This document shows, in pieces, positions 45,667 through 63,795 of a DNA stretch of 64,000 nt. The notes under the pieces were generated by a model that was not told the DNA's origin, ran no database searches, and worked only from the letters and a program-made list of their open reading frames with translations. This DNA comes from Frigoribacterium endophyticum (GTDB lineage: Bacteria; Actinomycetota; Actinomycetes; Actinomycetales; Microbacteriaceae), in contig NZ_JAAOYV010000001.1 in the NCBI RefSeq assembly GCF_011759585.1, positions 1,426,001-1,490,000 on the forward strand. Direction: 5' to 3'. Each line of letters starts with the position of its first letter. The first letter of the stretch is position 1. The position numbers and the translations under genes were made by a program.

Positions 45667-45721
45667 GGGGGCCTCCAGGTGCAGGGATGTGGGGGTGGGT
45701 CGTGAGGGTCGGGGGGCGGGG

Positions 45722-47065: not shown

Positions 47066-47072
47066 GGTCGAC

Positions 47073-50000
47073 ATGCCCCTCCTCGACGTCGCGCCGCTCG
47101 TCGACGCCGTCGACGTCATCCGGTTCGTCGGCCCGCGCCCGTTCGCCAAGGGGCGGCAGTACTCGCGCGAAGACCGGGTCCGCGACATCACCTACGACCC
47201 CGTCGACCAGGTCGTCACCGGCACCGTCCGCGGCAGCAGCGCTGAGCCCTACCGGTGCGAGATCGTCCTCCAGCCGACGCGCGGCGAGCAGAGCCGCCCC
47301 TCGCGCAGCACCTGCACCTGCCCGCTCGGCGGCGACTGCAAGCACGTCGCGGCCGTGCTGCTCGCCAACAACGCGGCGGCGCTGGCCCCGCCCGCGGCCG
47401 CGCCGCTCGGCGGCGACGGCGACCTCCCCTCGCCCCGGGCCGGCGGCGGCGCGGCCGGCGACGCGGCCCCCTCCCCCGACGACTGGCGTGCCCGGCTCGG
47501 CGGCCTCACCGGCCGGCCGGCGCCCCGCGACGCCCGCACCACCTCCATGGGCCTGCTGTTCGAGCTGCGGCCGCGGGTCGCCCCGCCCCGCAGCGCCCGG
47601 TGGGACGCCCCGCGCGTCGACCGGCACGAGCGCTCGACGGGCGGGCTCGGCGGGGGCCTCGTGAGCGGCAGCTCCCTCGCGGGCGCGGGGGGCGCCTCCC
47701 CGGCTCCGGTCCGGCCGTCGGGGGCGGCGAGCTGGCGTCTGGGCGTGCGGCCGGTCAGCCTCAGCCCGACGGGCAACTGGGTGCGGGGCGACCTCACCTG
47801 GACGTCGCTGCCCTACCAGATGAACCGGCTCGCGATCGGGGCGGAGCAGCACGCCTGGTTCGGGCAGTTCGCCGCCCTGCACCGGTCGGTGCACGCCTCG
47901 TACGTGCCGGGCGAGGCGGACTGGCTGATGCTCGACGACTTCACGAGCCCGCTGCTCTGGCCCCTGCTCGCCGAGGCCCGCCGGCTCGGCGTCGCCCTCG
48001 TCACCGGCAAGCGCGCCACCGACGTCACGGTCGCCGCGGGGGCCCGCGTCACCGTCGACGCGCGCACCGATCCGGGCCGGGGCCTCGTGCTGAGCGCCGG
48101 GGTCACGGTCGACGGCGAGCCGCACGCCGCCGCCGACACGGGCACGATCGGCGACCACGGCGTGTACGTGGCGACGCCCCAGCCGCACCTCGCCGTCGTG
48201 CTCGCCCCGACCGTCGCCCCGCTGGCCCCCGAGCAGAAGCAGCTGCTGACGAGCACGGCCGAGATCACGGTGCCCGAGGCCGACGCCGAGGAGTTCCTCC
48301 GCGACTGGTACCCGGGCCTGCAGCAGGCGGTCGCCGTGACCAGCCGTGACGAGTCGGTCGCGCTGCCCGAGGTGCTGCCTCCCCAGCTCGTGCTCACGGC
48401 GTCGTTCGGCGCCGGCGACGCCCTCGCCCTGACCTGGCGCTGGGTGATCGCCGGCCGCACCGAGCCCTTCTCCGCGCACGAGACGTCGCTCGACCTGGAG
48501 GCGCTCGGCGTCCCCGCGCGCGGGGCGACCCTGAAGGGCGTCGCCGCCGCCGAGTTCGTGGCCACCCGCCTGCCCGAGCTCGAGGGGCGCGACGACCTCC
48601 GCGTCGTCGTCGACGGCGAGCGCCCCGACTACCGCGAGCTCACCGAGGCGCCGCACCTGACGGTCACCACGGTCGAGACCGACAAGAGGGACTGGTTCGA
48701 CCTCGGGGTGCTCGTCACGGTCGAGGGGCGGACGGTGCCGCTCGTGCCGCTGCTCACGGCCCTCGCGAGGCGGCGCGACAAGATGCTGCTCGTCGACAAG
48801 TCGTACCTGTCGCTCGCCCACCCCGCCTTCGACGAGCTGAAGCGCTTGATCGACGAGGCCACCGGCCTCGACGAGTGGGAGGCCGGGCCGCGCATCAACC
48901 GCTACCAGGCCTCGCTCTGGTCGGAGTTCGACGACCTCGCCGACGCGACGGTGCAGGCCGACGCCTGGCGGAGCGCCGTGGGCGGCCTGCTCGAGCTCGC
49001 GGCCGGCGACCAGCTGCCGGGCGTGGCCGACACCCCCGTGCCGGCCGGCCTCGACGCCGAGCTGCGGCCGTACCAGCTCGACGGCTTCCGCTGGCTCGCG
49101 TTCCTGCACCAGCACGGCCTCGGCGGGGTCCTCGCCGACGACATGGGCCTCGGCAAGACGGTGCAGACGCTGGCGCTCGTCGCGCACGTGCGCGAGGTGG
49201 AGGCACGGGCGCACGTGCGCGAGGAGGAGGCGCGCGGGCGGGAGGCGCGGGCCGGGTCGGCGGGGCGCCCGCCGTTCCTCGTGGTCGCGCCCACCTCGGT
49301 CGTGCCGAACTGGGCGTCGGAGGCGGCGCGCTTCACCCCCGGCCTCCGCGTGCACGTCGTGACCGAGACCGAGGCGAAGAGCCGGCGGCGGCTCGCCGCG
49401 GTCCTCGCCGGCGGCGACGTCGACCTCGTCGTCACGTCGTACGCGCTGTTCCGGCTCGACGCGGCCAGCTACTCCCGGCACGCCTGGGCGGGGCTGGTGC
49501 TCGACGAGGCGCAGTTCGTCAAGAACCCCTCCTCGCAGGCGCACCGCTGCGCCGTCGAGCTCGACGCGCCGTTCAAGCTCGCGATCACGGGCACGCCGCT
49601 CGAGAACTCGCTGACCGACCTCTGGGCGCTCTTCCACGTCGTGGCCCCGGGGCTGCTCTCGACGCACGTCCGCTTCTCCGACGACTACGTCAAGCCGATC
49701 GCGACCGGTGAACGACCGGAGCTGCTCGCGCGGCTGCGGGCGCGCATCCGGCCCCTCATGCTCCGCCGCACGAAGGAGCTCGTCGCCGCCGACCTGCCCG
49801 CCAAGCAGGAGCAGCTGCTGCGCGTCGATCTCGCCCCGGCGCACCGCGAGCTGTACGACGCGTTCCTCCAGCGCGAGCGCCTCAAGCTGCTCGACCTCAT
49901 CGACGACCTCGACCGCAACCGGTTCATCGTCTTCCGCTCGCTGACGCTGCTGCGCATGCTCGCGCTCGACGCGGCGCTGATCGATCCCGAGTACTCCGAC

Positions 50001-50510
50001 GTGCCGTCGGCGAAGCTCGACCAGCTGCTCGACGAGCTCGACGACGTCGTGGCCGAGGGGCACCGGGCCCTGGTCTTCAGCCAGTTCACCTCGTTCCTCG
50101 GGCGCGTGGCCGAGCGCCTCGAGCAGCGGGGCACGGCGCACGAGTACCTCGACGGCTCGACGCGGCGACGGGGCGAGGTGATCGAGAGGTTCAAGGGGGG
50201 CGCCTCCCCCGTGTTCCTGATCAGCCTCAAGGCGGGCGGCTTCGGGCTCAACCTCACCGAGGCCGACTACGTGTTCATGCTCGACCCGTGGTGGAACCCC
50301 GCGTCGGAGTCGCAGGCCGTCGACCGCACGCACCGCATCGGCCAGACGAAGAACGTCATGGTGTACCGGATGATCGCGAACGACACCGTCGAGGAGAAGG
50401 TCCTCGCGCTGCAGCAGAAGAAGGCCGCGCTCTTCGACGCCGTCGTCGACGACGACGCCGTCTTCAGCTCGGCGCTGACGGCCGACGACATCCGCGGGCT
50501 GCTCAACTAG
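47073..50510 (+). CDS. SWIM zinc-finger SNF2/RapA-type helicase
   Basis: An 1145-residue ATPase. A SWIM zinc motif is near residues 81-92 (CTCPLGGDCKHV). A Gly/Ala/Pro-rich linker (about 95-235) and an SNF2_assoc-like domain follow. The SNF2 core starts near 655: DDMGLGKT (I, about 690), VVAPTSVVPNW (Ia), DEAQ (II, about 810), TGTPLENS (III), VFSQFTSF (IV), LKAGGFGLNLTEADYVFMLDPWWNP (V) and DRTHRIGQ (VI). The ATPase part contains a charged repeat (EVEARAHVREEEARGREAR). It probably remodels DNA-protein complexes or RNA polymerase. Confidence 0.93.
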   Translation: MPLLDVAPLVDAVDVIRFVGPRPFAKGRQYSREDRVRDITYDPVDQVVTGTVRGSSAEPYRCEIVLQPTRGEQSRPSRSTCTCPLGGDCKHVAAVLLANNAAALAPPAAAPLGGDGDLPSPRAGGGAAGDAAPSPDDWRARLGGLTGRPAPRDARTTSMGLLFELRPRVAPPRSARWDAPRVDRHERSTGGLGGGLVSGSSLAGAGGASPAPVRPSGAASWRLGVRPVSLSPTGNWVRGDLTWTSLPYQMNRLAIGAEQHAWFGQFAALHRSVHASYVPGEADWLMLDDFTSPLLWPLLAEARRLGVALVTGKRATDVTVAAGARVTVDARTDPGRGLVLSAGVTVDGEPHAAADTGTIGDHGVYVATPQPHLAVVLAPTVAPLAPEQKQLLTSTAEITVPEADAEEFLRDWYPGLQQAVAVTSRDESVALPEVLPPQLVLTASFGAGDALALTWRWVIAGRTEPFSAHETSLDLEALGVPARGATLKGVAAAEFVATRLPELEGRDDLRVVVDGERPDYRELTEAPHLTVTTVETDKRDWFDLGVLVTVEGRTVPLVPLLTALARRRDKMLLVDKSYLSLAHPAFDELKRLIDEATGLDEWEAGPRINRYQASLWSEFDDLADATVQADAWRSAVGGLLELAAGDQLPGVADTPVPAGLDAELRPYQLDGFRWLAFLHQHGLGGVLADDMGLGKTVQTLALVAHVREVEARAHVREEEARGREARAGSAGRPPFLVVAPTSVVPNWASEAARFTPGLRVHVVTETEAKSRRRLAAVLAGGDVDLVVTSYALFRLDAASYSRHAWAGLVLDEAQFVKNPSSQAHRCAVELDAPFKLAITGTPLENSLTDLWALFHVVAPGLLSTHVRFSDDYVKPIATGERPELLARLRARIRPLMLRRTKELVAADLPAKQEQLLRVDLAPAHRELYDAFLQRERLKLLDLIDDLDRNRFIVFRSLTLLRMLALDAALIDPEYSDVPSAKLDQLLDELDDVVAEGHRALVFSQFTSFLGRVAERLEQRGTAHEYLDGSTRRRGEVIERFKGGASPVFLISLKAGGFGLNLTEADYVFMLDPWWNPASESQAVDRTHRIGQTKNVMVYRMIANDTVEEKVLALQQKKAALFDAVVDDDAVFSSALTADDIRGLLN

Positions 50511-50574
50511 GCGGTCGCGCCCCGCCGTGTCAAGGCGTCACCGGCCGACGAGCCCCGGTGCTTGCGTGGGAGCC

Positions 50575-51333
50575 ATGTCTCCCCTGCGCCCCCGTGCCGT
50601 GCTCGACCGCGACGTCGCCCCCGGGGTGCACCGGCTCGAGCACGCCGACACGAACCTCTACCTCGTCGAGCACGGCGACCGCGTGCTCATCGTCGACGCG
50701 GGCCTGCCGGGGGTGTGGCCGCACCTCGTCGAGTCGCTCTTCGAGCTGGGCCACGGCCTCGGCGACGTCGACGGCGTGCTGCTCACGCACGCGCACTTCG
50801 ACCACGTCGGCACGGCCCGGCGGCTGCGCCAGCAGTGGGGGCTGCCCGTCTGGGTGCACCCCGACGACGCCCGGCTCGCGCGGCACCCCTACTCGTACCG
50901 GCACGAGCGGCCCCGGTGGCGCTACCCGGTCGAGCACCCCGCCGCGGTGCCCGCGCTGACCCGCATGGCCCTGGCCGGTGCCCTCTCCGTGCCCGCCGTG
51001 CTCGACACGCGCCCGATCACGGAGGCGGCCCTGCCCGAGGGCGCCGTGCTGCTCGAGACCCCGGGGCACACCGACGGCCACGTCGCGCTGCACCTGCCCG
51101 ACCGCGACGCGGTCATCGTCGGCGACGCCGTGGTGACGCTCGACCCGTACACGGGCCGACGGGGCCCGCAGATCGTCGCGGGCGCGGCGACGGCCGACAG
51201 CGAGCTGGCCCTGGCGTCGCTCGACACGATCGCGGCGACGGGGGCACGGGTACTGCTGCCCGGCCACGGAGCGCCGTTCCGGGGAGGCGCGGCGCAGGCG
51301 GTCTCGGAGGCCCGGCGCCGCGGGGCGCACTGA
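50575..51333 (+). CDS. MBL-fold metallo-hydrolase
   Basis: A 252-residue metallo-beta-lactamase-fold protein: ADTNLYLVEHGDRVLIVDAGLPG, metal motif LTHAHFDHVGTA, then ETPGHTDGHVALHLP, VGDAVVT and LLPGHGAPF. It is distinct from the MBL protein at 18952 and lacks its C-terminal helical domain. The substrate is unknown. It follows the SNF2 gene by 64 bases; the ATG at 50575 is preferred over upstream GTG/ATG starts, whose residues are not family-like. Confidence 0.9.
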   Translation: MSPLRPRAVLDRDVAPGVHRLEHADTNLYLVEHGDRVLIVDAGLPGVWPHLVESLFELGHGLGDVDGVLLTHAHFDHVGTARRLRQQWGLPVWVHPDDARLARHPYSYRHERPRWRYPVEHPAAVPALTRMALAGALSVPAVLDTRPITEAALPEGAVLLETPGHTDGHVALHLPDRDAVIVGDAVVTLDPYTGRRGPQIVAGAATADSELALASLDTIAATGARVLLPGHGAPFRGGAAQAVSEARRRGAH

Positions 51334-51362
51334 GGGCTCGAGCGCGCTGGGGTGTCGAGGGC

Positions 51363-51403
51363 GCTGAGGTCTCGGACTCGCTGACGTCTCGGACTCGCTG
51401 AGG
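51363..51403. repeat. 17-base imperfect tandem repeat, about 2.4 copies
   Basis: GCTGAGGTCTCGGACTC and GCTGACGTCTCGGACTC in tandem, followed by a partial GCTGAGG. It lies in the 159-base gap after the MBL gene; no stem is evident. Confidence 0.75.
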
Positions 51404-51479
51404 CGCGTGCCGGGGCGACCGACCACGGGTCGCCGCTCCGCGCCTCCGAGGACGCCGACAATGCGAGGGACCCTCCGCG

Positions 51480-51485
51480 TAGCGT
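51480..51485 (+). promoter_or_regulatory. -10 box TAGCGT, leaderless start
   Basis: TAGCGT, 7 bases, then the ATG at 51493. Confidence 0.55.
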
Positions 51486-51492
51486 CACGCGC

Positions 51493-52044
51493 ATGGACTC
51501 CGACGACTCGACCGCACCGCGCACGCCCGAGCAGGACGCCGCCGAGCTCGCGCTCGCGATCGTCTCGCACGCCACCGCCATCACGCAGGAGGACGACGCG
51601 GCCCTCGACGCGAGCGACGAGAACCTGCGAGAGGTCGTGGCGGGGCAGACCGACCAGCCCCTCACGGAGCGGCAGCAGGAGGTCGTCACGACCCTCGGCA
51701 CGGCCGGCGGGGCCCTCGCGGCTGGCCTGAGCCACGCCCTGGCCGACGCCCGTGGCGTCGACGCCGCCGAGGTGCTCGGCGCGACGGCCCGCTCGGTCGT
51801 CGCCCACGCCCGCGACGGCGAGGCGCTCGACGACGCCGTGCGTGACGCAGCCGACGACGAGCTGGCGGCACGGCACGGCGGGGCCCCGGCGCCGTCGGAC
51901 GACGACCTCGAGGCCGCCGACCCGCGCCGGGGCACGCTGCCCGAGGGCGAGGCCGACCGCCGTGACCTGCACGACGCCGGCGACCAGGGCCTGCGCTCCT
52001 CGGGCAGCGACCGCCAGCACGGCGAGGGCGACTCCCCCCGCTGA
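51493..52044 (+). CDS. Acidic hypothetical protein, 183 aa
   Basis: A very acidic, Ala/Asp-rich soluble protein. The first 110 residues are helical (DAAELALAIVSHATAITQEDDAALDASDENLREVV, GGALAAGLSHALADARGVDAAEV). The last 60 are Asp/Gly/Arg-rich and look disordered (DPRRGTLPEGEADRRDLHDAGDQG). I recognise no family. It is leaderless and convergent with the HAD gene of the ter operon, separated by the 28-bp hairpin. Confidence 0.65.
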   Translation: MDSDDSTAPRTPEQDAAELALAIVSHATAITQEDDAALDASDENLREVVAGQTDQPLTERQQEVVTTLGTAGGALAAGLSHALADARGVDAAEVLGATARSVVAHARDGEALDDAVRDAADDELAARHGGAPAPSDDDLEAADPRRGTLPEGEADRRDLHDAGDQGLRSSGSDRQHGEGDSPR

Positions 52045-52127
52045 CGCTGCTCCCCCCGGCTCGCCGGCCGAGCGCCCGGCCCGCCCCAGCCCGGCCCTGC
52101 CCTGCCCTGCGCACCGAACCAGTCCGC

Positions 52128-52189
52128 CGAACCACCGACTGATCAACGAACCACGTCATGGCGTGGTTCGTTGATCAGTCGGTGGTTCG
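52128..52189. repeat. Double-box GAACCAC structured element, copy 2 (28-bp perfect stem)
   Basis: Arms 52128-52155 and 52162-52189 are perfectly complementary over 28 bases, with a 6-base loop. Each arm holds two GAACCAC boxes (52129 and 52148; complement at 52163 and 52182), 19 bases apart, as in the copy at 24843. The 12-base linkers differ between copies, but pairing is kept. It lies between convergent genes, so it may be a bidirectional terminator, although there is no T tract. Confidence 0.8.
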
Positions 52190-52239
52190 CCGGCGTGACG
52201 GGTGCGCCGATGGCGGACGAGGGGCGGCGGGGCCGGGCG

Positions 52240-53085
52240 CTACGCGGAGACGGGTGCCGGGGCGCGGGCCGCGTCGGCGACGACGGCCGACATGCGCCGC
52301 AGCAGCTCCTCGCCGGCCAGCACGCCGTCGGCGTCGGTCACCGTGAGGTGCGACGCCGTCCAGCCGAGGTCGTGCAGCTCGCCGTGGGCAGGGCGGAAGG
52401 CGTGGTCGGCGACCTCCAGCATGCCCTGGTCGAGCAGCGAGTCGCCCGCGGCGAGCACGAGGTCGGCGCCCGTGCGGGCCCGCACCTCCTCGAGGGCCGC
52501 CGCCTTGGTGACCGGGCTCGGCACGCAGTAGACCTTCCGGCCCTGCACCGAGACCGTCCAGCCGAGCTCGTCGCAGCGCGCCGCCAGGTCGGCCACCGCC
52601 GTCTCGGGCATCTCGGCACGGTCGACGACCGCGTAGACGAAGAGGTCCTCCGCGACCTTGACCGAGAGCGTCCAGGTGCTCCAGTGCGCATCGGTCAGGA
52701 GGGCCTCGACCTGGGCGAGGGGCGCGCACTCCTCCGCGACGCGGGCGTCGAGGCGTCGTCGCCAGTCGAGGTCGGGCACGCCGTCGACGAGCAGCGCGCC
52801 GCCGTTGGTCGTCACCGCGTGCGTCGGCCGGACGCCCGGCAGCCGCACGCGCTGGTACTGGGCCACGGTGCGCGTCGTCACCGGGACGAGGTGCGCCGCG
52901 GCCGCGAGCGAGACGAGCAGCCCCTCGGAGGCGCGGGTCGTGAACGAGATCGGCACGCCCCCGTAGACCTCCGCCACGAGCAGGTCGGGCGCGTCGCGGT
53001 CGTCGCCCTGCAGGCGCAGCGCGGCGGCGGAGTAGATCAGGGTGCGGTCGAGGTCGCAGGCGACGACCACGGGGGCGCGGCTCAT
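52240..53085 (-). CDS. HAD-superfamily phosphatase of the ter operon
   Basis: A 281-residue HAD hydrolase with a C2-type (Cof/sucrose-phosphatase-like) cap. Nucleophile Asp in VVACDLDRTLIYS, motif II in VPVTTRTVAQY, Lys in SPVTKAAAL and acidic motif IV in LAAGDSLLDQGML. Its start overlaps the stop of the upstream fusion gene (4 bases). HAD phosphatases of this sort belong to the biosynthetic module of Ter gene clusters (known from comparative genomics). It is the last gene of the operon. Confidence 0.88.
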   Translation of the reverse strand: MSRAPVVVACDLDRTLIYSAAALRLQGDDRDAPDLLVAEVYGGVPISFTTRASEGLLVSLAAAAHLVPVTTRTVAQYQRVRLPGVRPTHAVTTNGGALLVDGVPDLDWRRRLDARVAEECAPLAQVEALLTDAHWSTWTLSVKVAEDLFVYAVVDRAEMPETAVADLAARCDELGWTVSVQGRKVYCVPSPVTKAAALEEVRARTGADLVLAAGDSLLDQGMLEVADHAFRPAHGELHDLGWTASHLTVTDADGVLAGEELLRRMSAVVADAARAPAPVSA

Positions 53086-55943
53086 CGGGCACCTCCGTCG
53101 GTCGAGGAGGTCGGGGCTGGCTCGGCGCGCACGGCGCGCCCGTCGGCACCGGTCGCCCCGGCGGTGTGCACGGGGTGGATCAGCCCGACGCAGCTGTAGG
53201 GCAGCTCGTCGACGACCTCCACCGGCACGCCGCGCTGCTCGGCCAGCAGCAGCACGTGGCGGACCTCGTCGAGGGCGTCGGCGCGCACGAGCACCTTCCA
53301 GGGGATGCGCCGCAGCAGCACGCGGGTCGTCTCGCCCACGCCGGGCTTGACGAGGTTCACGTCGTGCACGCCCTGCTCGTCGCTGATGCGCTCGACGGCC
53401 TCCCAGCCGGCCCAGGTCGGGCCGGCGGCCCGGTCGGGCTCCGTCGCCGCGGCCGCGACGCGACGGTCGACCTCGTCGACGACGGCGTCGAAGCGCGCCG
53501 AGACCGTGTCGACGAAGGCGCGCGACACGTCGGCTTCGGCGAGCTCCGAGTAGAACTTGCCGCCGTGGAAGTCGTGGTCGCCGATCAGCCGGCGGTTGTA
53601 GACCGTGCGCGAGACGAGGCCCGAGACGGTCGAGTTGAGGCAGGCGGACGGGATGAGGAAGTCGTCGCGGGTGCCCCAGGTCGACGCGCAGCGGCCCGGG
53701 TCAGCGAGCACGGCGAGGTCGTCGCCGAAGCGCACGCCGTCGGTCTCCTCGAAGCGCGCCAGGGCCTCGGTCAGCTCGCGGGTGATGGCGCCCTTGCCCG
53801 TCCAGCCGTCCACGAAGACGACGCGCGCCGGGTCGTGGTGGGCGACCAGCCAGCGCAGGGCGACCGGGTCGAGGCCCACGCCGCGCACGATGCTCATCGT
53901 GAGGTGCGGGGCGTCGACGCCGCGCACGCGGGCGGCCCAGCGGCGCATCAGTACCCCGACGGGGGTGCCGGCCCGCGCGAGCGAGACGAGCACCGGCGCC
54001 TGGTCGCGGGCGGCGAGCACGAGGTCGGTGACGACCCCGACGGCCGTCGCGACGCGGTCGGCCGACCGGGCCAGCGCCTCCTCGTACAGGGCCTGGTACT
54101 CGGGGGTGGGCTGGTACTCGATCGGCAGCGACTCGGCGTAGTTGGCCGTCCCGCCCTGCAGCGTCGCCTCGCGCTCGTGCGCGGGCGCCTCGAGCTGCGC
54201 GTCGCCGAGGTCGGTGAGCAGCCACGACACGTCGTCGGCGTCGTACGAGCCGAACGCCGGGCCGACGAGCGGCTCGGGCAGGTCGGGGCGCTCGGGCCGC
54301 TCGGGCAGCTCGTCGGCGGGGCGCGACGCCCCGGTCGGGGCGGCGGGGGCGGTGGAGGCGGGGCTGGGCTGCACGTCGGATCTCTCGGTGAGGCTGTCGG
54401 CGGGGCGGGCGGGCGCGGGGGCGGGGGCTTCGTCGGCCGCCGCGAGCAGCACGACGAGCACGTGATCGGCGACCTCGCGGAGCGCCTCGGTGACGCTCCC
54501 GGCACCGACGAGCTCGTCGGGGTCGGTGCCCGGCTCGGGCATCAGCACGACGACGCGGGGCCGGGCTCCGGCCCGGGACAGGTTGTAGGCGTGCCGCGGC
54601 CCGGGGCCGTCGAGGGTCACGTCGTGGCTGCGGAAGGTGACGCCCGAGGCGACCGCGTAGTCGGGGCGGTCCAGCACGGCGATGGGCGACCGCGTGGTCG
54701 ACGAGGCCCGCGTGGGCAGGTGGCCGTCGAGCTCGTGCGCGACGGCGAGGGGGACGGAGAGGAACTCCTCGGTGCCGAGCACGACGACCGGGTCGCCGCC
54801 TCGGGCGCCCGCGCGCAGGTCGGTCGGCAGGGCCTCGAGCACGGCCGCCACGACGCCGGCCACGTCGACGGCGGCCGTCGCGGCCGGGGCGTCGACCCCG
54901 AACCGCTCGCTCCGCACCGGCGCGACGACGTCGCGGAGGTCGAGCAGCGCGACGGCGTCGGCCGCCGCGGCACGGAGGAGGGCGGGCACGGCCTCGCCGA
55001 GCCCGGCCGCCACGTCGGCCCCGACGGTCAGCACGTCGGCGGGCAGCTCGACGCGCCCCTGCCCGAGCGCCACGACGTCGACGCGGGTGCCGAGCTCGCG
55101 CGCGACGGCGTCGAGCGCGGCCCGGTCGTCGTCGCCCCGGAGGTCGACGAGGGCCGCGACCACGAAGCGCTCCTGCGGCACCCGCGCGTGCAGGTCGCGG
55201 ACGGTGTCGACCACCGTCGCCCCGGTGCTCAGCTCGTCGTCGACGAGCACCACGGTGCCGCCGACGCGCAGCCGAGACGGGTCGGTCGGCAGCAGCCGGT
55301 GGCTGGTGGCGTGCGAGTGGGCCTCCTCGAACGCGCCGAAGGCGACGGCGCCCGCGGGGTCGTGACGGGTCGAGTGGAGGTACCACGAGCCGAGGGCGTC
55401 GGCGACGAGGCGCCCTAGCCCGGTCGCCGTCTCGGCGTAGCCGAGCGTCGCGACGCCGGGGTGCCCGGTGCGGAGGGCGGCCAGCTCACGGCGCAGGGCC
55501 GTGAGGTCGCCCCGGAGTCGCGCCCGCGCCTCCCCCTCGGCCTCCCGCTCGGCCAGCAGCCTGGTGAACTCGCCCGCCAGCCGCCGGAGCTCGGCACCGC
55601 GGGCGCCCGCGTCGCCCTCGGCCAGCGCGAGGTCCGCCGCCGTGCCGAGCAGCTCGCCCGCCACCACGGCGAGGCCGGGGACGGTCGGCACGTGCTTGGC
55701 GAGCACGGTGGAGACGAGGAGGTGCGCCCGTCGGGGGTTCCGCCGGAGCGCGAGGCCGACGAGGAGCTCGACGGGCACCAGGCCGTCGCCCTCGGAGCGC
55801 ACGACGATGCCGACCCGGTCGTGCACGAAGCCGCTCTCGGGCGACATCGGAAGGGCGGGCGGCGTCGAGGCAGCGACGGGTGCGGCGGCGGCGGGCGCGG
55901 CGGACCGCACCGCCTCGGAGACCGGGCCGGGGCTCGCGCTCAC
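53082..55943 (-). CDS. Fused phosphoribosyltransferase-TRSP-StiP-PELOTA protein
   Basis: A 953-residue protein joining two that are commonly separate in Ter clusters. Residues about 35-330 are a PRTase_2-type phosphoribosyltransferase, with the PRPP motif at 231-243 (VVLVDDELSTGAT). A TRSP domain at about 340-500 contains the eponymous TRSP at 417-420. A Pro/Ala-rich linker follows (about 503-558). Then comes a StiP-like domain (about 560-870) with the conserved Cys in SACLNSTVSGLVSRTVYN and a second PRTase-like VVFVDGWTGKGAI. A PELOTA RNA-binding-like domain ends the protein (about 880-930; VLLRRIPWKVLVRA). Its stop overlaps the HAD start and its start overlaps the CitE-like gene. Confidence 0.85.
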   Translation of the reverse strand: MSASPGPVSEAVRSAAPAAAAPVAASTPPALPMSPESGFVHDRVGIVVRSEGDGLVPVELLVGLALRRNPRRAHLLVSTVLAKHVPTVPGLAVVAGELLGTAADLALAEGDAGARGAELRRLAGEFTRLLAEREAEGEARARLRGDLTALRRELAALRTGHPGVATLGYAETATGLGRLVADALGSWYLHSTRHDPAGAVAFGAFEEAHSHATSHRLLPTDPSRLRVGGTVVLVDDELSTGATVVDTVRDLHARVPQERFVVAALVDLRGDDDRAALDAVARELGTRVDVVALGQGRVELPADVLTVGADVAAGLGEAVPALLRAAAADAVALLDLRDVVAPVRSERFGVDAPAATAAVDVAGVVAAVLEALPTDLRAGARGGDPVVVLGTEEFLSVPLAVAHELDGHLPTRASSTTRSPIAVLDRPDYAVASGVTFRSHDVTLDGPGPRHAYNLSRAGARPRVVVLMPEPGTDPDELVGAGSVTEALREVADHVLVVLLAAADEAPAPAPARPADSLTERSDVQPSPASTAPAAPTGASRPADELPERPERPDLPEPLVGPAFGSYDADDVSWLLTDLGDAQLEAPAHEREATLQGGTANYAESLPIEYQPTPEYQALYEEALARSADRVATAVGVVTDLVLAARDQAPVLVSLARAGTPVGVLMRRWAARVRGVDAPHLTMSIVRGVGLDPVALRWLVAHHDPARVVFVDGWTGKGAITRELTEALARFEETDGVRFGDDLAVLADPGRCASTWGTRDDFLIPSACLNSTVSGLVSRTVYNRRLIGDHDFHGGKFYSELAEADVSRAFVDTVSARFDAVVDEVDRRVAAAATEPDRAAGPTWAGWEAVERISDEQGVHDVNLVKPGVGETTRVLLRRIPWKVLVRADALDEVRHVLLLAEQRGVPVEVVDELPYSCVGLIHPVHTAGATGADGRAVRAEPAPTSSTDGGAR

Positions 55944-57181
55944 GCCGCGCCTCCGGCCAGGCTCAGCGAGGTCGCCCGCATGCTGAGCTCGAGCAGGTCG
56001 ACGTACGTGGTCTCCTCCGCGGCGACCCCGAAGGCCGCGGCGCGCAGCAGCGTGCGCTCGGCCCAGGCGCGGTGCGGCTTCATCTCGTTCATCTTGTTGC
56101 GGTACGGCGAGGCGACCGCGCCGCCGCCCTGGCGACCCGTGATCGCGAGGGCGTCGTGGTACTCCTCGTGGCTGACGACGCTCATGGCGTGCACGAGCGC
56201 GACGTGCGACGGGTGGATGACGGTCTTGCCCGTGATGCCGTTCGCCTGGTCGAGCGCGATCTCGCGCAGCAGGCCGTCGAAGTTCTCGAGCAGCAGTCGG
56301 CGGCGCAGGTCGACGTCGTCGGCCTCGACGAAGGGCGTCATGCGCAGCTGGGGGCGCAGGAGGCGCTCGGTGTCGGCGTAGTGCTCCCAGACCGGGCCGC
56401 TGATGACGAAGCCGCGGTCGTGGCGCCCCAGCCGGTTGACGATGTCGGCGATCATGGACGCGACGACGCCCACGTCGTAGATCGTGAGGTCGCGCGACCG
56501 GCGGAGGCCGAAGGCGCTCGAGAGGTCGGTCGCGCCGATGCGGACGGCGAGCACGTCCTCACGGTGGCGCTGCAGCACCTCGGTGATGCCCTCGAGCGCC
56601 GCGGTGCGCGTCTCGGCGTGGATCATCACGGGCGACTCGAGGATGGGCATGACCCGGAGCCGCCGACGGGCCGCGTCGCCGCCCTGGTCGAAGCGCTCGT
56701 GGATCTCGTGCAGCACGGCGAAGAAGCGGTCGGCGTAGCCGTCCTGGTTCTCGAACTTCGGCAGCACGAAGCCGCTGAGCACGTCGAGCGCGGAGCCCGA
56801 CCGCTCGGCCACGCGGAGCATCTGCTCGGGCGTCCGCACGCGCACGAAGAGCAGGGGCGCGGGCAGCGGCGCCGCGTCGGGCGCGAGGTCGCCGGCCTGC
56901 TCACGGTGCAGCTCGGCCAGGGCCGCCACCACGGCGTCCTCGGCCTGGTCGACCTCGTCGTCGGCGACGCTGTCCTCCAGGCAGAGCACCATGCTCATGA
57001 CGCCGCGGGCCGCCTGCTTGTGCACCGCACCGACGAGGTCGGGGCGCGTGCCGGGGCAGTAGAGCGTGGCCCCGAGGGCGACCGCGAGCAGCGGCGCGGG
57101 CGACGAGAAGTCGAGCCGCTGCGGGATCGTGTGGAAGACGAGCGACAGCTGCTCGTCGCTGAGGAAGCCGAAATGGCGCAT
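55940..57181 (-). CDS. HpcH/CitE-like C-C bond lyase of the ter operon
   Basis: A 413-residue TIM-barrel lyase of the citrate-lyase beta type (C-C_Bond_Lyase family of Ter clusters). Seen: LLAVALGATLYCPGTRPDL, VLCLEDSVADDEV (acidic metal site), FVRVRTPEQM, MPILESPVMI with the metal-ligand Glu, VRIGATDLSSAFG and KTVIHPSHVALVHAM. It probably forms or cleaves a carbon-carbon bond in making the cluster's nucleotide-like product. It overlaps the PRTase fusion by 4 bases. Confidence 0.88.
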   Translation of the reverse strand: MRHFGFLSDEQLSLVFHTIPQRLDFSSPAPLLAVALGATLYCPGTRPDLVGAVHKQAARGVMSMVLCLEDSVADDEVDQAEDAVVAALAELHREQAGDLAPDAAPLPAPLLFVRVRTPEQMLRVAERSGSALDVLSGFVLPKFENQDGYADRFFAVLHEIHERFDQGGDAARRRLRVMPILESPVMIHAETRTAALEGITEVLQRHREDVLAVRIGATDLSSAFGLRRSRDLTIYDVGVVASMIADIVNRLGRHDRGFVISGPVWEHYADTERLLRPQLRMTPFVEADDVDLRRRLLLENFDGLLREIALDQANGITGKTVIHPSHVALVHAMSVVSHEEYHDALAITGRQGGGAVASPYRNKMNEMKPHRAWAERTLLRAAAFGVAAEETTYVDLLELSMRATSLSLAGGAA

Positions 57182-57187
57182 GGGCGA

Positions 57188-58015
57188 TCATCTCCCGTTC
57201 GGGGCGCTGTCACCGGGACGCTCGGGGATCGAGTACCCGAATCTCTGGTGGACGAGAGGTGGCGTGAGGGTGTCCGGCAGGGTCACCCGGCGCAGCTCGA
57301 GGAGGCCGTCGACGACGAGCACCGCCAGCGCGACCCGCTCGCCGGGCTCGGCCGGGTCGACCGAGAGGCGGCGGTCGCCGGGCAGCTCGACCTGCAGCCA
57401 CGCACCGTCGCCCGCCACGACCAGGGCCCGGCGCAGCTCGCGCACGTGCCGCAGGGTGACGAGCACCTCGTCGCCGTCGAAGGCCACGAGCGGGCGGTTG
57501 CCGCTGGTCGTCACGACGTCGCCCATGCGCTGGCCGGTCGAGAACGCCGCCCCGTCGACCAGCTCCGTGCTCTCCCACACGGCGTGCACGCCGGCGGTGA
57601 CGACGAGCGTGCCGATCGCCGACCGCCGCGGCGAGAGCCGCACGACGGGCTGGTCGCGGCTCAGCTCGCGGACGTCGGTGACGTCGGGGGCCGGGAACGG
57701 CGCGGGTCGTGTCGGGCGGGCGGGGCGAGCGGGGCGGGCGGGGCGAGTCGTGCCGGTCACGCTCGACGGGCCGGAGGCGGGGCGCGAGCCGGGCGCGGAG
57801 GTCGCGGCCGCGGCCCCTCCGCGGGGTCCGCCCAGCGAGAGGCCCGACGACGCGGGCGGCGTGGCCGTCGGCGTCGGCGTCCGAGTCGGCGTCGGCGTCA
57901 CCGGCGTTGAGGCCGGCGCCGCCGTGTGCGTCGCGGCGACGTCGGGCACCGCGACCTGCGGCTTCACCCGCCGTCGCAGGAAGACGAGGTCGGTGCGCGT
58001 CGGACGCTCGGCCAC
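57188..58015 (-). CDS. Uncharacterised ter-operon protein with Pro/Thr linker
   Basis: A 275-residue protein. A short basic opening (MAERPTRTDLVFLRRRVKP) leads to a 90-residue low-complexity linker (TPTPTRTPTPTATPP, then RPARPARPARPTRPA). About 140 residues of beta-rich sequence follow (VRLSPRRSAIGTLVVTAGVHAVWESTELVDGAA, LVAFDGDEVLVTLRHVRELRRALVVAGDGAW, FGYSIPERPG). I cannot name the family. A TerA-like relative is possible: position, length and basic leader fit, but I see no decisive motif. GTG 58015 follows the TerD stop by 2 bases. Confidence 0.7.
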   Translation of the reverse strand: MAERPTRTDLVFLRRRVKPQVAVPDVAATHTAAPASTPVTPTPTRTPTPTATPPASSGLSLGGPRGGAAAATSAPGSRPASGPSSVTGTTRPARPARPARPTRPAPFPAPDVTDVRELSRDQPVVRLSPRRSAIGTLVVTAGVHAVWESTELVDGAAFSTGQRMGDVVTTSGNRPLVAFDGDEVLVTLRHVRELRRALVVAGDGAWLQVELPGDRRLSVDPAEPGERVALAVLVVDGLLELRRVTLPDTLTPPLVHQRFGYSIPERPGDSAPNGR

Positions 58016-58017
58016 GG

Positions 58018-58569
58018 CTAGAGCGTCACCTTGTAGTCGCGGGCCACGCCGGCGAGGCCGGTGGTGTAGCCCTGGCCGAGGGCACGGAACTTCCAGTCGT
58101 CGCGGTGGCGGTAGAGCTCGCCGAAGAGCATCGCGTTGATCGCGTGGTTCTCGTCGCTCGGCACGACGAAGCGGACGAGATCGCGGCCGTCCTTCGTGGC
58201 GACGCGCATGCTCGCCTGGCGGACGGCCCCGAAGGTGCCGAGGCCGCGGCGGTCGGGGTCGACGTAGACGACGAAGACGATCTTGGCCACGTCGTCGGGC
58301 ACGAGGGCGAGGTCGACGTCGATCTGCTCCTGGTCGGCGTCGCCGTCGAACGCGACGGCGCCGTCGGCCGAGACGAGCTGGTTGAAGAACACCACGTCGT
58401 CGCCGGTGCGGGCGGTGCCGTCCGCGCCGCAGAGCACCGCGAGGGGCACGAGCTCGGGCTGCGGGCCGCGGCTCGGCGTGGTCTGCCACGAGAAGCCGAC
58501 GAGCAGCTCGTGCACGTCGGGGTTCTCGGCGGTCAGCGCGGCGTTGCTGCCGGGCACCATCTCGCCCAT
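58018..58569 (-). CDS. Divergent TerD family protein
   Basis: A 183-residue TerD-domain protein. The family skeleton is there ([87 protein letters not shown]). The N-terminal beta-hairpin is not the usual GLSLxKGxxLSL. The acidic calcium loop reads FDGDADQEQIDVDL rather than [10 protein letters not shown], so metal binding may differ. The start overlaps the upstream stop by one base (TGATG). Confidence 0.87.
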   Translation of the reverse strand: MGEMVPGSNAALTAENPDVHELLVGFSWQTTPSRGPQPELVPLAVLCGADGTARTGDDVVFFNQLVSADGAVAFDGDADQEQIDVDLALVPDDVAKIVFVVYVDPDRRGLGTFGAVRQASMRVATKDGRDLVRFVVPSDENHAINAMLFGELYRHRDDWKFRALGQGYTTGLAGVARDYKVTL

Positions 58570-59108
58570 CAGGGTCCTTCCAGTCGGAGGGTCGGCTCGT
58601 CGAACTTCGAGCGGAGGAAGCGGCCGTGGGTCGACAGCTCCTCGATCGCGCCGAGCCTGACCTGGTTCGTGAAGTCCAGGACGGTCTCGTGGACGATGCC
58701 GAGCTGCTCGACGAAGAGAGCGGTGGGGCGGGAGTCCTCGGTGCGGTCGACCGCGGGCAGCGAGAGGTAGCGGCCGAGCGGCGTGGGCACGTGGTCCTCG
58801 ACGAGCTGCTCCATGAGCACCCGCTGCTCGGTCGAGGCGCCCTGCGACTCGATCAGGGCCGCCGACTCGCGGAGCACGTCGACGATCTGGAGCAGGTGCG
58901 AGGTGACGAGGGTGGGCAGGCGGCCTCCGCCGGCGTCGATCGAGCGCGCCAGCTCCTCCAGCCGACGGGCCTCCGGCGTCGTGGAGCCCTGCCCGAGCGC
59001 CGACGCGACGACCTCGCCAGCCGCGGCCACCGCCTCCACCGGGGTCGACGACGGACGCGCCGGGACGGAGTCGTCCCGGTCGCGCCCGAAGATCCTGCCG
59101 AAGACCAT
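58569..59108 (-). CDS. Uncharacterised ter-operon protein, 179 aa
   Basis: A helical soluble protein. MVFGRIFGRDRDDS is a short amphipathic start, followed by long helices (EARRLEELARSIDAG, LPTLVTSHLLQIVDVLRESAALIESQGA, TALFVEQLGIVHETVLDFTNQVRLGAIEEL). It lies 3 bases after telA. TelA genes are often next to a helical XpaC-like partner, and this protein may be a counterpart, but I see no direct motif match. Confidence 0.72.
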   Translation of the reverse strand: MVFGRIFGRDRDDSVPARPSSTPVEAVAAAGEVVASALGQGSTTPEARRLEELARSIDAGGGRLPTLVTSHLLQIVDVLRESAALIESQGASTEQRVLMEQLVEDHVPTPLGRYLSLPAVDRTEDSRPTALFVEQLGIVHETVLDFTNQVRLGAIEELSTHGRFLRSKFDEPTLRLEGP

Positions 59109-59111
59109 CGG

Positions 59112-60356
59112 CTAGGCCGAGGGGCCGCCCAGCGCCGGGCGGGCGGTCGCGCCGCCGAGCTCGGCGGCCTCGCCCTGGCGGCTGCGCTCCAGGTAGGGCT
59201 TGGCCCGGGTGATGCCGGCCTCGAGGGCCGCCACCGTGCCGGACATGTTCTGCGCGGCCTGCGAGCGGAAGGAGTCGATCGAGTCCATCGTCGCGAAGAC
59301 GTTGTCGAAGGCCTTCTGCAGCGTGTCGACGCTGACGCCCGATGACGACGCCTGCTCGTGGATGCGGGCGGTCTGGTCCTTCAGCATCTCGCTGGTCTGC
59401 AGGATCATGTTGTTCGTCGTGGTGTTGATGGCGTCGATCTGGTCGAGCACCATCTTCTGGTTGGCCAGGGCCGCCGCGACCGTGACGGCCGTGCGGAGGG
59501 CGGCGATGGTCGTCGTGCGGGCGCGGTCGACGCCCTTCACCAGCTCGACGTTGTTCTTGCGGATGAGGTCCATGGCGAGGTAGCCCTGCACCGACACCGC
59601 CAGCTGCGTGAGGATGTCCTGTCGGCGCTGGCGGATCGGGAAGAGGACGTCGGCCTCGAGCTTCTGCGCCTGCTCCAGCTGGCCGGAGGCGCGGGCGGAG
59701 TCGATCTTGGCGGTCGCGGCCTGGTCGAGGGCGTCGGCGAAGACGGCGTACTCGCTGAGCTGACCCATCGTCTCCCAGAGCTGCTGCTTCTCGCCGGCCA
59801 GGGCCGCGTTGTCTTTCAGGAGCTCGTCCTTGCCCGACATGAGCGACTTGATGATCGCGTCGAGCTGCGTCTGGGCCGACTCGTACTTCTGGAAGTACTT
59901 GGCCAGCTTGTTCCCGCCCGGGATGAACCCGAGGATCTTCCGGCCCACGCCGAGGTCGGCCTGGTTCGGCGTGAGGTCCTCCACCGTCGACCGCAGGTCG
60001 CCCAGGGTGTTCGCGACCTTGATCTGGGCGCTGTCGCCGCCGCGCTTCGCCCCGGCGACCGACGAGCTCGACCGCTCGAGCATGCGCGTCGAGTAGCCGC
60101 TCGACGAGGTCATCTCGGCGCTGGCGAGGCTCGAGATGCCCTCGACCTTCTCCGTGAACTCGGGCGCCCGCGGGTCGAGGGTCGACACGTCGCGGATGAA
60201 CTCCTGCGCCTGGCGCCGGATCTCGACCTGGCGCTCCTCCGGCACGGGGATCATGCCGGGCGCCGTCTCGGGCTCGACGATCGCCGGCGCCTCGGGTGCG
60301 CGCAGGACGAGTTCGCCGCTCTCGTCGGGGTCGGGAGGAGTGAGGGTCATGCTCAT
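59112..60356 (-). CDS. TelA / toxic anion resistance family protein
   Basis: A 414-residue mostly alpha-helical protein with coiled coils. Family marks: QAQEFIRDVSTLDPRAPEF, LTPNQADLGVGRKILGFIPGGNKLAKYFQKYESAQTQLDAII, LMSGKDELLKDNAALAGEKQQLW, LFPIRQRRQDILTQLAVSVQGYLAMDLIRKNNVELVKGVDRARTTTIAALRTAVTVAAAL. TelA proteins are linked to tellurite and envelope-stress resistance; the mechanism is unknown. The ATG at 60356 (MSMT) follows AGGATCGGATCACCC, so the ribosome site is weak. It lies 53 bases after terD. Confidence 0.93.
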   Translation of the reverse strand: MSMTLTPPDPDESGELVLRAPEAPAIVEPETAPGMIPVPEERQVEIRRQAQEFIRDVSTLDPRAPEFTEKVEGISSLASAEMTSSSGYSTRMLERSSSSVAGAKRGGDSAQIKVANTLGDLRSTVEDLTPNQADLGVGRKILGFIPGGNKLAKYFQKYESAQTQLDAIIKSLMSGKDELLKDNAALAGEKQQLWETMGQLSEYAVFADALDQAATAKIDSARASGQLEQAQKLEADVLFPIRQRRQDILTQLAVSVQGYLAMDLIRKNNVELVKGVDRARTTTIAALRTAVTVAAALANQKMVLDQIDAINTTTNNMILQTSEMLKDQTARIHEQASSSGVSVDTLQKAFDNVFATMDSIDSFRSQAAQNMSGTVAALEAGITRAKPYLERSRQGEAAELGGATARPALGGPSA

Positions 60357-60409
60357 GGGTGATCCGATCCTGAGGTGTCGACGGGGTGGAACCGGGTGGT
60401 GGGGTCGGC

Positions 60410-60988
60410 TCAGCCGAAGGTGACGCCGAAGTCGCCGGCGATGCCCGCGAGGCCGGTGGTGTAGCCCTGGCCGACCGCCTTGAACTTCCACTCCGAGCCG
60501 CTGCGGTAGACCTCGGCGAAGACCATGGCGGTCTCGGGCGCGGCGTCCTCGCTGAGGTCGAAGCGGACGATCTCCTTGTCGTCCTGGTCGAGCACGCGGC
60601 AGTAGGCGCCGCGGACCTGGCCGAAGTTCTGGCGACGCTCGTCGGCCTGGTCGATCGAGACCGCGATGACGACGCGGTCGACGTCGGCCGACACGCTCTG
60701 CAGGTCGATCGAGATCTGCTCGTCGTCGCCGTCGCCCGCGCCGGAGCGGTTGTCGCCGAGGTGCTTCACCGAGCCGTCGGCGGCCTCGGTCTGGTTGTAG
60801 AAGATGAAGTCGGCCGACGAGCGGACCTTGCCGGCCGGGCCGACGAGGAGGGCCGAGGCGTCGAGGTCGAAGGCCTCGCCGCTGGTCGTGCGCGGGTCCC
60901 AGCCGAGGCCGACGGTGGCGACGGTCAGCCCGGGGCTGGTCTTGGTGAGCGAGAGGTTGTTGCCCTTGGCGAGCGAGAGTCCGGCCAT
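60410..60988 (-). CDS. TerD family protein (canonical, copy 1)
   Basis: A 192-residue TerD. N-terminal [16 protein letters not shown], then [30 protein letters not shown], the acidic calcium-binding loop [42 protein letters not shown] and [36 protein letters not shown]. TerD binds calcium and is thought to link membrane TerC to cytosolic partners. An AGAAGGA ribosome site precedes the ATG. It is closely similar to the next copy, a tandem duplicate. Confidence 0.95.
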
Positions 60989-61065
60989 GGTGTCGTCCTT
61001 CTGTCGTGGTGGTGCGCGTACGGGGTGCGGTGGCGCTGGCGGTGCGGGGCGGTGCGGGCCCGGGC

Positions 61066-61647
61066 TCAGTCGAGCACGATGCCGAAGTCGGTGGCGATGC
61101 CGTAGAGGCCGGTGGAGTAGCCCTGGCCCACGGCGCGGAACTTCCACTCGGCGCCGTGGCGGTAGATCTCGGAGAAGATCATGGCCGTCTCGGAGGCGGC
61201 GTCCTCGCTGAGGTCGTAGCGCACGACCTCCTGCCCGGTGTCTTCGTTGACGACACGGCAGAACGCGTCGCGCACCTGCCCGAAGTTCTGCCGACGGACG
61301 TCGCCCTGGTCGATCGTGACGCAGATGACGATGCGGTCGACGTCGGCGGGCAGCAGCGACAGGTCGATGCGGATCTGCTCGTCGTCGCCGTCGCCCTCGC
61401 CGGTGCGGTTGTCGCCGAGGTGGGCGACCGATCCGTCGGGGGTGGCCAGCTGGTTGTAGAAGATGAAGTCGTCCTGCGACCGGACCTTCCCGTCGGCGCC
61501 GAGCAGCAGCGCCGAGGCGTCGAGGTCGAAGGCCTGGCCGGCGGTGGTCCGCGGATCCCAGCCGAGGCCGACGACGGCACGGCTCAGGGTCGGGTCGGCC
61601 TTGGAGAGGGAGAGGTTGTGGCCCTTGGAGAGGGTGAGGCTCGCCAT
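61066..61647 (-). CDS. TerD family protein (canonical, copy 2)
   Basis: A 193-residue TerD. The [16 protein letters not shown] start, [26 protein letters not shown], calcium loop [14 protein letters not shown] and [21 protein letters not shown] place it next to copy 1 with near-identical layout. The GGAAGGA ribosome site is at good spacing. There are 77 bases to the next TerD gene with no hairpin, so all are cotranscribed. Confidence 0.95.
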
Positions 61648-61707
61648 CGATGTGTTCCTTCCGTGCGGGGTGCCGTGGTGCGGGGTGCTGTCGGCTCGGC
61701 CGACGAC

Positions 61708-62301
61708 CTAGAGCGCGGCGGCGGCGGGGCCGACGAGCTCGGGCACGGCCCGGCCGTTCGCCCGGTCGCCGATGGCGGTGAAGGTCCAGCCCTCGGTCGT
61801 GCGCGCGACCTTGGCCATGATCATGGCGGTGTGCGTGCCCGAGTCGGTCAGCTGGTAGCGCGCGACCTCGGGGCTGCCGGCGGTCGAGTCGTCGACGACG
61901 CGGCAGAACGCGTTCTTGACGAGGTCGAAGGTCTGACGGCTGTAGCTGCTGATGACGAAGACGATCTGGCTGACGCTCGGCGAGACGCGGGTGAGGTCGA
62001 TCATGATCGTCTCGTCGTCGCCGTCGCCCTCGCCGGTGAGGTTGTCGCCGGTGTGCCGGGCCGAGCCGTCCTTGCTCGCGAGCTGCTGGAACCAGACGAG
62101 GTCGAGCACCGCGCCGTTCGCGTCGAAGAAGATCGCGGAGGCGTCGAGGTCGACGTCGGCCTCCTTCTTGAGGCCGCCGAAGAAGCCCTTCTTGGCCGGC
62201 GTCGCGCTGTCCCAGCCGAGGCCGAGGCGCACCTTCGACAGCTGGCCGCCGTCGGCCTTCTTGAGGCTCAGCGACTGGCCCTTCTGCAAGCTCAGACCCA
62301 T
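61708..62301 (-). CDS. TerD family protein (TerZ-like, copy 3)
   Basis: A 197-residue TerD closer to the TerZ branch: [31 protein letters not shown], a basic insert [24 protein letters not shown], calcium loop [14 protein letters not shown], and [24 protein letters not shown]. The C-terminus diverges ([20 protein letters not shown] instead of GQGYTTGL). AAGGAG precedes the ATG. It is the first TerD after TerC, 177 bases downstream of it. Confidence 0.94.
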
Positions 62302-62478
62302 GATGTTCTCCTTCGATGATCGTGGTGGAGAGCTGCCGCGAGGACCGCTCCTCCTGTTCGTTGCCTGTGTGACTGGTGACATCCTGTCCGAACGACCTGG
62401 GCTGGTGCTGACCGCGGGCGATGGAGCAGCTGTCGGAGCCCTGTGCCCGAGGAGGCGCGGAACGGCACCCGGAGCCCG

Positions 62479-63609
62479 CTAGCGGGAGGCGGTGACCGGC
62501 GCCTCCGCCGCCTCCTCGCGCGCCACGCGCCGGTTGCGCACCAGCGACGACGCGAACGCGGCGAGGATGAAGACGACCCCGATGAGGCCCGTGACGACCT
62601 CGTTGACGTGGACGCTGATCGACACGAGCAGGATCGTGGCCAGCGCGCCGATCGCCCAGTGCGCGCCGTGGTCGAGGTAGACGTAGTCGTCGAGCGTGCC
62701 GGCCCGGACGAGGAAGACCGTGAGCGACCGGACGAAGATCGCGCCGATGAGGCCGAGGCCGAGCGCGATGAGGATGGGGTCGCTCGTGATGGCGAACGCG
62801 CCGATGACCCCGTCGAACGAGAACGACGCGTCGATGACCTCGAGGTAGAGGAAGAGCAGGAAGGCCGCGCGGCCCACGACCTTGCCGCCGGTGTTGCGCG
62901 GGCCGCCGGCGCTGATGCGCTCGGCACGCGCGGCGACCTCCTCCGGGTCGATGTCCTGGTCGTCGTCGTCGTCCGACACGTCGAACAGGGCTCCGAGGCC
63001 CGTGACGAGGAAGTACGCGACCATGCCGAGCGCCCCGGCGACGAGCACGACCGCCTGCTTCTCGCCCGCCGCGAGCGAGGCCACGACGAGGGCGACGAGG
63101 CCGATGACGACGGAGGCGCTGCTGAGCTTGCCGACCCAGGCGAAGGCGAGCTCGGGGATCTTCAGCCAGCGGATGTCGCGGTCCTCGAACATGAAGTCGA
63201 GGAAGAGCATGAGCAGGAAGATCCCACCGAAGGCCGCGATCTGCGGGTGCGCGTCGTTGAGGATGTACGCGTAGGTGCCGGGCTCCTCGATGCTGCCCTG
63301 CTCGAGAGCCAGGCGGATGGCCTCGACCGGGTTCAGCTGCGCCGTGACGGCGACGATCAGCAGCGGGAAGAGGATCCGCATGCCGAGCACGGCGATGAGG
63401 ATGCCCACGGTGAGGAACATCTTCTGCCAGAAGGCGCTCATGCGCTCGAGGATGCGGGCGTTGACCACCGCGTTGTCGAAGCTGAGGCTGATCTCGAGGA
63501 TGCCGAGCACCGCGACCAGGATCAGCGCCTCGACGCCGCCGTACACGAAGCCCACCGCGAGGGCCAGCACCGTGACGACCAGCGACCCCGCGAACGTCTT
63601 GAAGAACAC
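62479..63609 (-). CDS. TerC/DUF475 integral membrane protein
   Basis: A 376-residue protein with 8-9 transmembrane helices. Two family repeats carry acidic intramembrane motifs: [14 protein letters not shown] and [15 protein letters not shown]. An Asp-rich cytosolic loop is at about 211-222 ([15 protein letters not shown]). Members move divalent metals or act as a membrane platform for the Ter complex. GTG 63609 follows GGGGGAG by 7 bases. It heads the operon. Confidence 0.93.
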
Positions 63610-63707
63610 CTGGCGACTCCCCCTCGGCCGGTCGTGCCGGCCTGCTCGTGACCGTGCGGGCCCGGGCCCCCACGGGGTGCCCCGGCCGTCGGCCCGGGCA
63701 CCCGCCG

Positions 63708-63757
63708 AGTATATGGGCGCGCCGCGGGCTCGGCACGGCGGTCGTGCACATCGTGCA
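63708..63757 (-). promoter_or_regulatory. ter operon promoter and upstream dyad
   Basis: TATACT (63708-63713 on the minus strand) is the best consensus -10 in the window, in otherwise GC-rich sequence. Transcription would start about 90 bases before GTG 63609. Upstream of it, TGCAC-ATC-GTGCA (63745-63757) is a perfect 5-bp dyad suited to a regulator. No clear -35 is seen at 17 bases. Confidence 0.5.
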
Positions 63758-63795
63758 GCCGGGCCGGGCCGGGCCGGGCGGGGCGGCGCCGGGGC

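Follow-up and report, generated by a model that had tools for sequence, protein, structure and literature searches.

Gene content of the locus

The 64,000-nucleotide (nt) window analyzed here, from contig NZ_JAAOYV010000001.1 of Frigoribacterium endophyticum, contains a Ter-linked operon that is a real locus of known kind with a common gene fusion between a phosphoribosyltransferase (PRTase) gene and a StiP gene. A preliminary description made from the DNA letters alone had placed 11 minus-strand genes at 52240 to 63609, and both the list of open reading frames and Pfam matches bore this out (Table 1). Most of these genes overlap or are near-adjacent, in line with the earlier statement that they mostly overlap or lie within 80 bases; the exception was the first pair, separated by a gap of 177 nt with the TerD start chosen here. 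The value of the locus lies in a reinterpretation of StiP, predicted here to be a ribosyl-phosphate transferase, which makes the question of what the Ter module produces testable.

Table 1. Genes of the Ter-linked operon and domains of its fused chain, in window coordinates (pLDDT, predicted local distance difference test; PRPP, phosphoribosyl pyrophosphate; APRT, adenine phosphoribosyltransferase)
Feature	Position	Strand	Basis
TerC-superfamily membrane protein, DUF475 type	62479..63609	-	Pfam DUF475 404 bits, TerC 55 bits (above cut-off)
TerD-domain protein	61708..62301	-	Pfam TerD 164.9 bits; start set at internal ATG
TerD-domain protein	61066..61647	-	Pfam TerD 274.5 bits; start chosen in analysis
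TerD-domain protein	60410..60985	-	Pfam TerD 256.6 bits; start chosen in analysis
TelA	59112..60356	-	Pfam TelA 284.3 bits; start chosen in analysis
179-residue protein, no Pfam family	58569..59108	-	Relatives in five Microbacteriaceae loci (L128-L132)
TerD-domain protein	58018..58569	-	Pfam TerD 152.1 bits
Protein without Pfam family	57188..58012	-	Relatives in five Microbacteriaceae loci (L128-L132)
CitE-like C-C bond lyase	55940..57181	-	Pfam C-C_Bond_Lyase 385.4 bits
Fused PRTase_2-TRSP-linker-StiP-PELOTA_1 chain, 953 residues	53082..55943	-	Pfam, open frame, predicted model
PRTase_2 domain, residues 61-296	55056..55763	-	PRPP loop VLVDDELSTGAT; APRT-like fold (predicted)
TRSP domain, residues 347-478	54510..54905	-	Pfam; TTRSP motif
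Pro/Ala-rich linker, residues 503-558	54270..54437	-	pLDDT <50 at 508-552
StiP domain, residues 565-814	53502..54251	-	Predicted PRTase fold; FVDGWTGKGAI loop
PELOTA_1 domain, residues 844-923	53175..53414	-	L7Ae kink-turn type
HAD-IIB-like phosphatase	52240..53085	-	Family matches weak, below cut-off; motifs conserved

The genes for PRTase_2-TRSP, StiP-PELOTA_1, HAD and the C-C lyase stand together beside TerC, TerD and TelA genes recognized by Pfam, and their earlier identification as a Ter-linked biosynthetic module was correct. A module of PRTase_2-TRSP, StiP-PELOTA_1, HAD, C-C lyase and ATP-grasp beside TerC/TerD/TelA was reportedly described by Anantharaman in 2012. The label of a complete Ter stress operon fits as far as this module goes but not in its completeness, as the classical terZABCDEF set includes TerB and the vWA protein TerF and no Pfam match to TerB or vWA was identified among the 11 proteins. 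Similarly, the first gene passes as TerC by clearing that family's cut-off, although it scored far higher as DUF475. In the split relative L129, the TerD genes are preceded by a canonical TerC (170.6 bits) in place of the DUF475 type; homologues of this TerC were found in three of five Microbacteriaceae loci, the L129 copy being the one scanned with Pfam. Residues E69, D70, E182, D219, K319, H323 and P324 of the lyase were each conserved in at least 71 of 72 rows, and D11, D13, K194, D215 and D219 of the HAD protein each in at least 69 of 72; we take these to be the CitE and HAD motif residues, respectively.

The anti-phage database PADLOC gave no match for 10 of the 11 operon proteins, the remaining TerD being outside the query set. 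A scan for σ70 promoters and T-tailed terminators identified nothing beyond chance level; the genes may well be cotranscribed. Effects of a Klebsiella ter operon were placed downstream of envelope damage, by a mechanism given as unknown, in PMC9933665, and TerC was tied to zinc and tellurite in PMC12054061. The operon described here could also be linked to stress.

The same parts, PRTase_2-TRSP, HAD, StiP-PELOTA_1 and C-C lyase, lie beside TerC/TerD in a module on an Escherichia coli plasmid (L124, checked with Pfam) and, by annotation, on the Pseudomonas plasmid pPUV-18. In both, however, a HAD-like gene stands between separate PRTase and StiP genes, whereas here the latter two are fused and the HAD gene comes last. 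An ATP-grasp gene leads both modules (of Ter type by Pfam in E. coli, by annotation in Pseudomonas) and is missing here, while the Frigoribacterium operon adds TelA and the two proteins without a Pfam family.

The lack of an ATP-grasp gene in the window had been noted before, and a search of the whole genome for the Ter type was negative as well, the sole match being a carbamoyl-phosphate synthase below the cut-off. Using one E. coli query and stretches of up to ∼18 kb near StiP, a Ter-type ATP-grasp was detected in 1 of 67 relatives from the class (L196, confirmed at 105.7 bits) and in none of the best 80 of 574 named loci. Its absence is usual in the class sample and, because the gene went undetected near StiP in 66 of the 67 relatives, appears to reflect a difference of the whole clade and not a fault in this particular operon. 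Of the 67 class genomes, 61 showed all four parts of the module. A HAD match was lacking in L158, L173 and L191, a lyase match in L169 and L195, and both PRTase and lyase in L186; apart from L173, these loci were mostly near contig ends. A 21-kb piece of phage ME3 gave matches to PRTase, HAD and StiP and none to lyase or ATP-grasp. PRTase, StiP and HAD seem to form the core of the module, while ATP-grasp and the fusion look optional.

One family of loci, f24 (L158, L173-L195, L197 and L199), carried all four module parts in 21 of 26 cases and no Ter gene in 25, within stretches of at most ∼9 kb on each side. Homologues of an acetyl-coenzyme A (CoA) synthetase-type gene of L190 were present in all 19 of the f24 loci examined, and those of a carbohydrate phosphorylase-type gene in 18. 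The former could feed CoA esters to the lyase, or its presence may be mere synteny, because the phosphorylase-type gene is nearly as frequent.

Fused and split genes among relatives

As had been described, PRTase_2-TRSP and StiP-PELOTA_1 form one uninterrupted chain, with all four domains matched by Pfam in an open frame. PRTase and StiP likewise share a frame in homologues from Streptomyces, Curtobacterium, Sinomonas and Cellulomonas; fused actinobacterial homologues were 52 to 57% identical to the chain (54 rows compared) and differed in the linker. The PRTase_2 domain also carries a helical insertion of ∼55 residues (108-163; 55455-55622) that is absent from the consensus of mostly Streptomyces relatives.

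Genes were counted as fused when a PRTase_2 match of >40 bits and StiP shared one frame without stops. StiP was above the cut-off in 68 of 296 class genomes; the 67 other than that of the window comprised 37 fused, 29 split and 1 undecided case (L186, at a contig edge with no visible PRTase, excluded from counts of state changes), and with the window the fused state reached 38 of 68. Among the best 80 of 574 named loci the two were in one frame in 79, but the best-scoring loci favor fused genes and the class census is the fairer count. On these numbers, the idea that the fusion is rare or new was rejected. The chain was present in 6 of 120 genomes in the family sample, fused in the window and G004 and split in G035, G050, G007 and G090, and three further named Microbacteriaceae loci were fused (L014, L022 and L088). 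The nearest congener, the sister Frigoribacterium G035, carries the two as separate genes at this site. The preliminary description had set as a refuting condition that close relatives always be split; this held for G035 and the three other split Microbacteriaceae in the family sample, and failed for G004, L014, L022, L088 and over the class.

An 85-row tree needed at least eight changes between the fused and split states, six of them forced by well-supported branches, and a careful tree of 54 rows thinned from the 85 gave seven changes, five of them forced. None of 200 bootstrap trees from the 54-row set was compatible with a single state change, and the window and its split sister formed a fully supported pair. 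The fusion appears to be common in the class and evolutionarily labile. In all 33 split loci the PRTase gene lay directly upstream of StiP in the same order, at a median of 77 nt from PRTase stop to StiP domain (range, 5 to 529). As these 33 pairs all kept their order and adjacency, the conserved feature is the neighborhood of the two genes and not their covalent linkage.

The preliminary description had proposed that the fusion is functionally new, in that it would channel an intermediate derived from PRPP from one active site to another. The 38 fused genomes of 68 and the continued adjacency of split genes would agree with this, but that adjacency is kept without fusion, the state changed seven to eight times on the trees, the sister species is split, and the linker is variable and, in the predicted model, disordered. 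Channeling gained no support from this and is quite unlikely.

The linker itself reads as genuine coding sequence. Its frame is open throughout, with a third-position GC of 0.95 to 0.98, and alignment to the split sister showed gaps of 11, 10 and 4 bases around the stop and restart, then 6, 27 and 3. Because several indels separate them, the two states differ by more than one slipped base. That the single chain results from faulty sequencing or assembly of two separate genes at 54,270 to 54,440, as the split sister might suggest, is hardly credible given the normal codon signal, these indels and the many other fused genomes, and this reading was rejected.

Predicted fold and candidate reaction of StiP

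The PRTase_2 half carries the canonical PRPP loop with two acidic residues (DD) and a predicted APRT fold, as do type I PRTases. The StiP half also has a PRTase fold in the predicted model; its PRPP loop, D712-G713, is without a second acidic residue and so lacks the acidic pair of type I PRTases. When folds were compared using VIA, CriT was the best match to StiP, followed by PyrR. The top 50 rows from VIA and Foldseek contained PRTases and L7Ae-type proteins, with some phosphosugar isomerases and pyridoxal phosphate enzymes also in Foldseek; the Foldseek comparison covered the StiP-PELOTA part of the chain.

CriT, from the capsule polymerase of Haemophilus influenzae type b, is PRTase-like and transfers O-linked ribose-5-phosphate from PRPP, after which the HAD protein CrpP takes off the phosphate (PMC10299916); the same transferase/HAD pair is described for Klebsiella O antigens in PMC11231755. 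In predicted fold and in its HAD partner, StiP corresponds to an O-ribofuranosyltransferase of the CriT type. Unlike StiP, CriT acts on a glycan acceptor and has its paired acidic residues in other loops, and the excerpts of PMC10299916 name no L7Ae domain for it. The acidic residues of CriT are split between loops 1 and 3, and StiP shows one in its PRPP loop. CriT did not appear when the StiP profile was matched to PDB sequences.

PELOTA_1 has a predicted L7Ae fold and a G-x-x-E-x-T-K/R sequence, which we take to be the kink-turn motif of L7Ae. It shares fold and motif with the kink-turn proteins L7Ae and YbxF, but differs from them in a Gly that replaces the motif Asn and in being joined to an enzyme. 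Its RNA binding is putative and is supported by this predicted kinship, which is what upholds the RNA part of the earlier proposal of RNA or substrate binding.

With a probability slightly better than even, the locus is an actinobacterial Ter operon of a type already known, in which StiP works with HAD and is a further PRPP enzyme, of a non-canonical type. DUF475/TerC, TerD and TelA would stand in one gene run with a module of four activities, those of the lyase, PRTase_2-TRSP, StiP-PELOTA_1 and HAD. PRTase_2 would be an ordinary-looking PRPP enzyme of the APRT fold, and StiP would move ribose-5-phosphate onto an acceptor bound by its L7Ae-type domain, after which HAD would strip the 5-phosphate. 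This division of labor would be that of CriT and CrpP in ribose-containing glycans, and the fusion, mechanistically optional, would do no more than pair the two PRPP enzymes one to one.

Several points weigh against this reading. CriT was not in the Foldseek top 50, whose first row was a phosphosugar isomerase with poor superposition; in VIA its lead over PyrR was only 2 Z units, partly due to length, and both CriT rows represent one protein. Comparison of the StiP and PRTase_2 profiles was not significant, and no convincing sequence relative of StiP was identified in the PDB. The loop-1 aspartate of CriT has no evident counterpart in the SLARAG loop of StiP, the CriT scheme leaves the lyase and TRSP without a role, and no biochemical datum for a StiP protein was found in the available portions of the literature consulted.

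A possible but less probable alternative is that two nucleobase-type PRTases and HAD make a small nucleoside-like signal, with PELOTA_1 binding the product or a regulatory RNA in the manner of PyrR. Synthesis of such a signal by the Ter module is the published view in the parts of PMC7824862 and PMC8115787 available, and the canonical DD loop and APRT fold of PRTase_2, together with the rank of PyrR, an RNA-binding PRTase, as best StiP match after CriT, are consistent with it. The missing second acidic residue in the StiP loop speaks against a nucleobase-type enzyme, one of the two aligners placed StiP closest to an O-ribosyltransferase, and the published proposal, in these same parts, names no metabolite.

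It is also conceivable, if unlikely, that StiP-PELOTA_1 is a PRPP-dependent RNA ribosyltransferase, in which the L7Ae domain would dock a structured RNA, StiP would attach ribose-5-phosphate to a hydroxyl, and HAD would trim the phosphate. There are parallels in Rit1, which makes such a transfer on yeast initiator tRNA, and in CriT, which makes it on a glycan. The "nucleoside-like metabolite" of the Ter module would in that case be a mark placed on RNA during stress.

Pfam and NCBI name StiP a cysteine protease, in the Pfam description and in RefSeq product names, and C768 is near-universal in the actinobacterial branch (112 of 114 rows). The residue is isoleucine, however, in the proteins of the E. 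coli plasmid and of phage ME3, which are among the most distant rows, and 40 diverse StiP rows held no invariant Cys column, two being nearly invariant. The predicted fold resembles PRTases, and no protease was found in the 50 rows each from VIA and Foldseek, although an unlisted fold is possible. On conservation and predicted fold the protease reading was not favored and is very improbable, and a ribosyl-phosphate transferase is predicted instead.

The Pfam name PRTase_1 is presumably an older name of StiP. In PMC5571608, a Ter PRTase was already linked with a PELOTA/L7Ae domain, PRTase_1 being listed beside PELOTA_1, and because that source joins them the PRTase and L7Ae ideas are not new in themselves. 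New here are the CriT/HAD parallel and the fusion census; among the papers listed by searches of the open-licence literature on StiP, on these Pfam families and on ribofuranosyltransferases in connection with tellurium, none drew this parallel.

Genomic setting and spread

Within Frigoribacterium the chain was present in 2 of 16 genomes. In one genome without it (G421), the two flanks of the operon (window 45234-51817 and 63781 onward) were ∼210 bases apart, and in the sister G035 the operon lies at the same place as in the window. As this site is empty in the former and occupied in the latter, the operon appears to be a presence/absence cassette of ∼12 kb at one site (51818-63780; site compared in these two genomes). 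On plasmids, the chain matched 2,566 of 72,556 records, mostly enterobacterial, and among the matches listed it was nearly always the StiP half that aligned. As StiP-bearing plasmids are mostly enterobacterial, the identity of the product would matter beyond this genome. Viral carriers were limited to two IMG/VR loci, one of phage ME3 length, and three phage records with a chain match (ME3 in two cases, an unverified 15-kb scaffold in the third); carriage by phages looks rare.

Beside the operon lies a gene for a metallo-beta-lactamase-fold hydrolase (50527-51333), which is missing from this place in G035. Of 15 congeners, only 2 have close relatives of this hydrolase (77 and 76%). A perfect palindrome at 52128 to 52189, roughly 50 bases beyond the HAD stop, consists of two 28-bp arms around a loop of 6 bases. 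A search of 15 congeners for its 19-base core, with up to two mismatches allowed, was negative. Four near-identical copies with unrelated flanks occur in the genome, one of them with a matching change in both arms. The palindrome looks like a dispersed element of the repetitive extragenic palindrome (REP) or miniature inverted-repeat transposable element (MITE) type, and it may also end the operon transcript.
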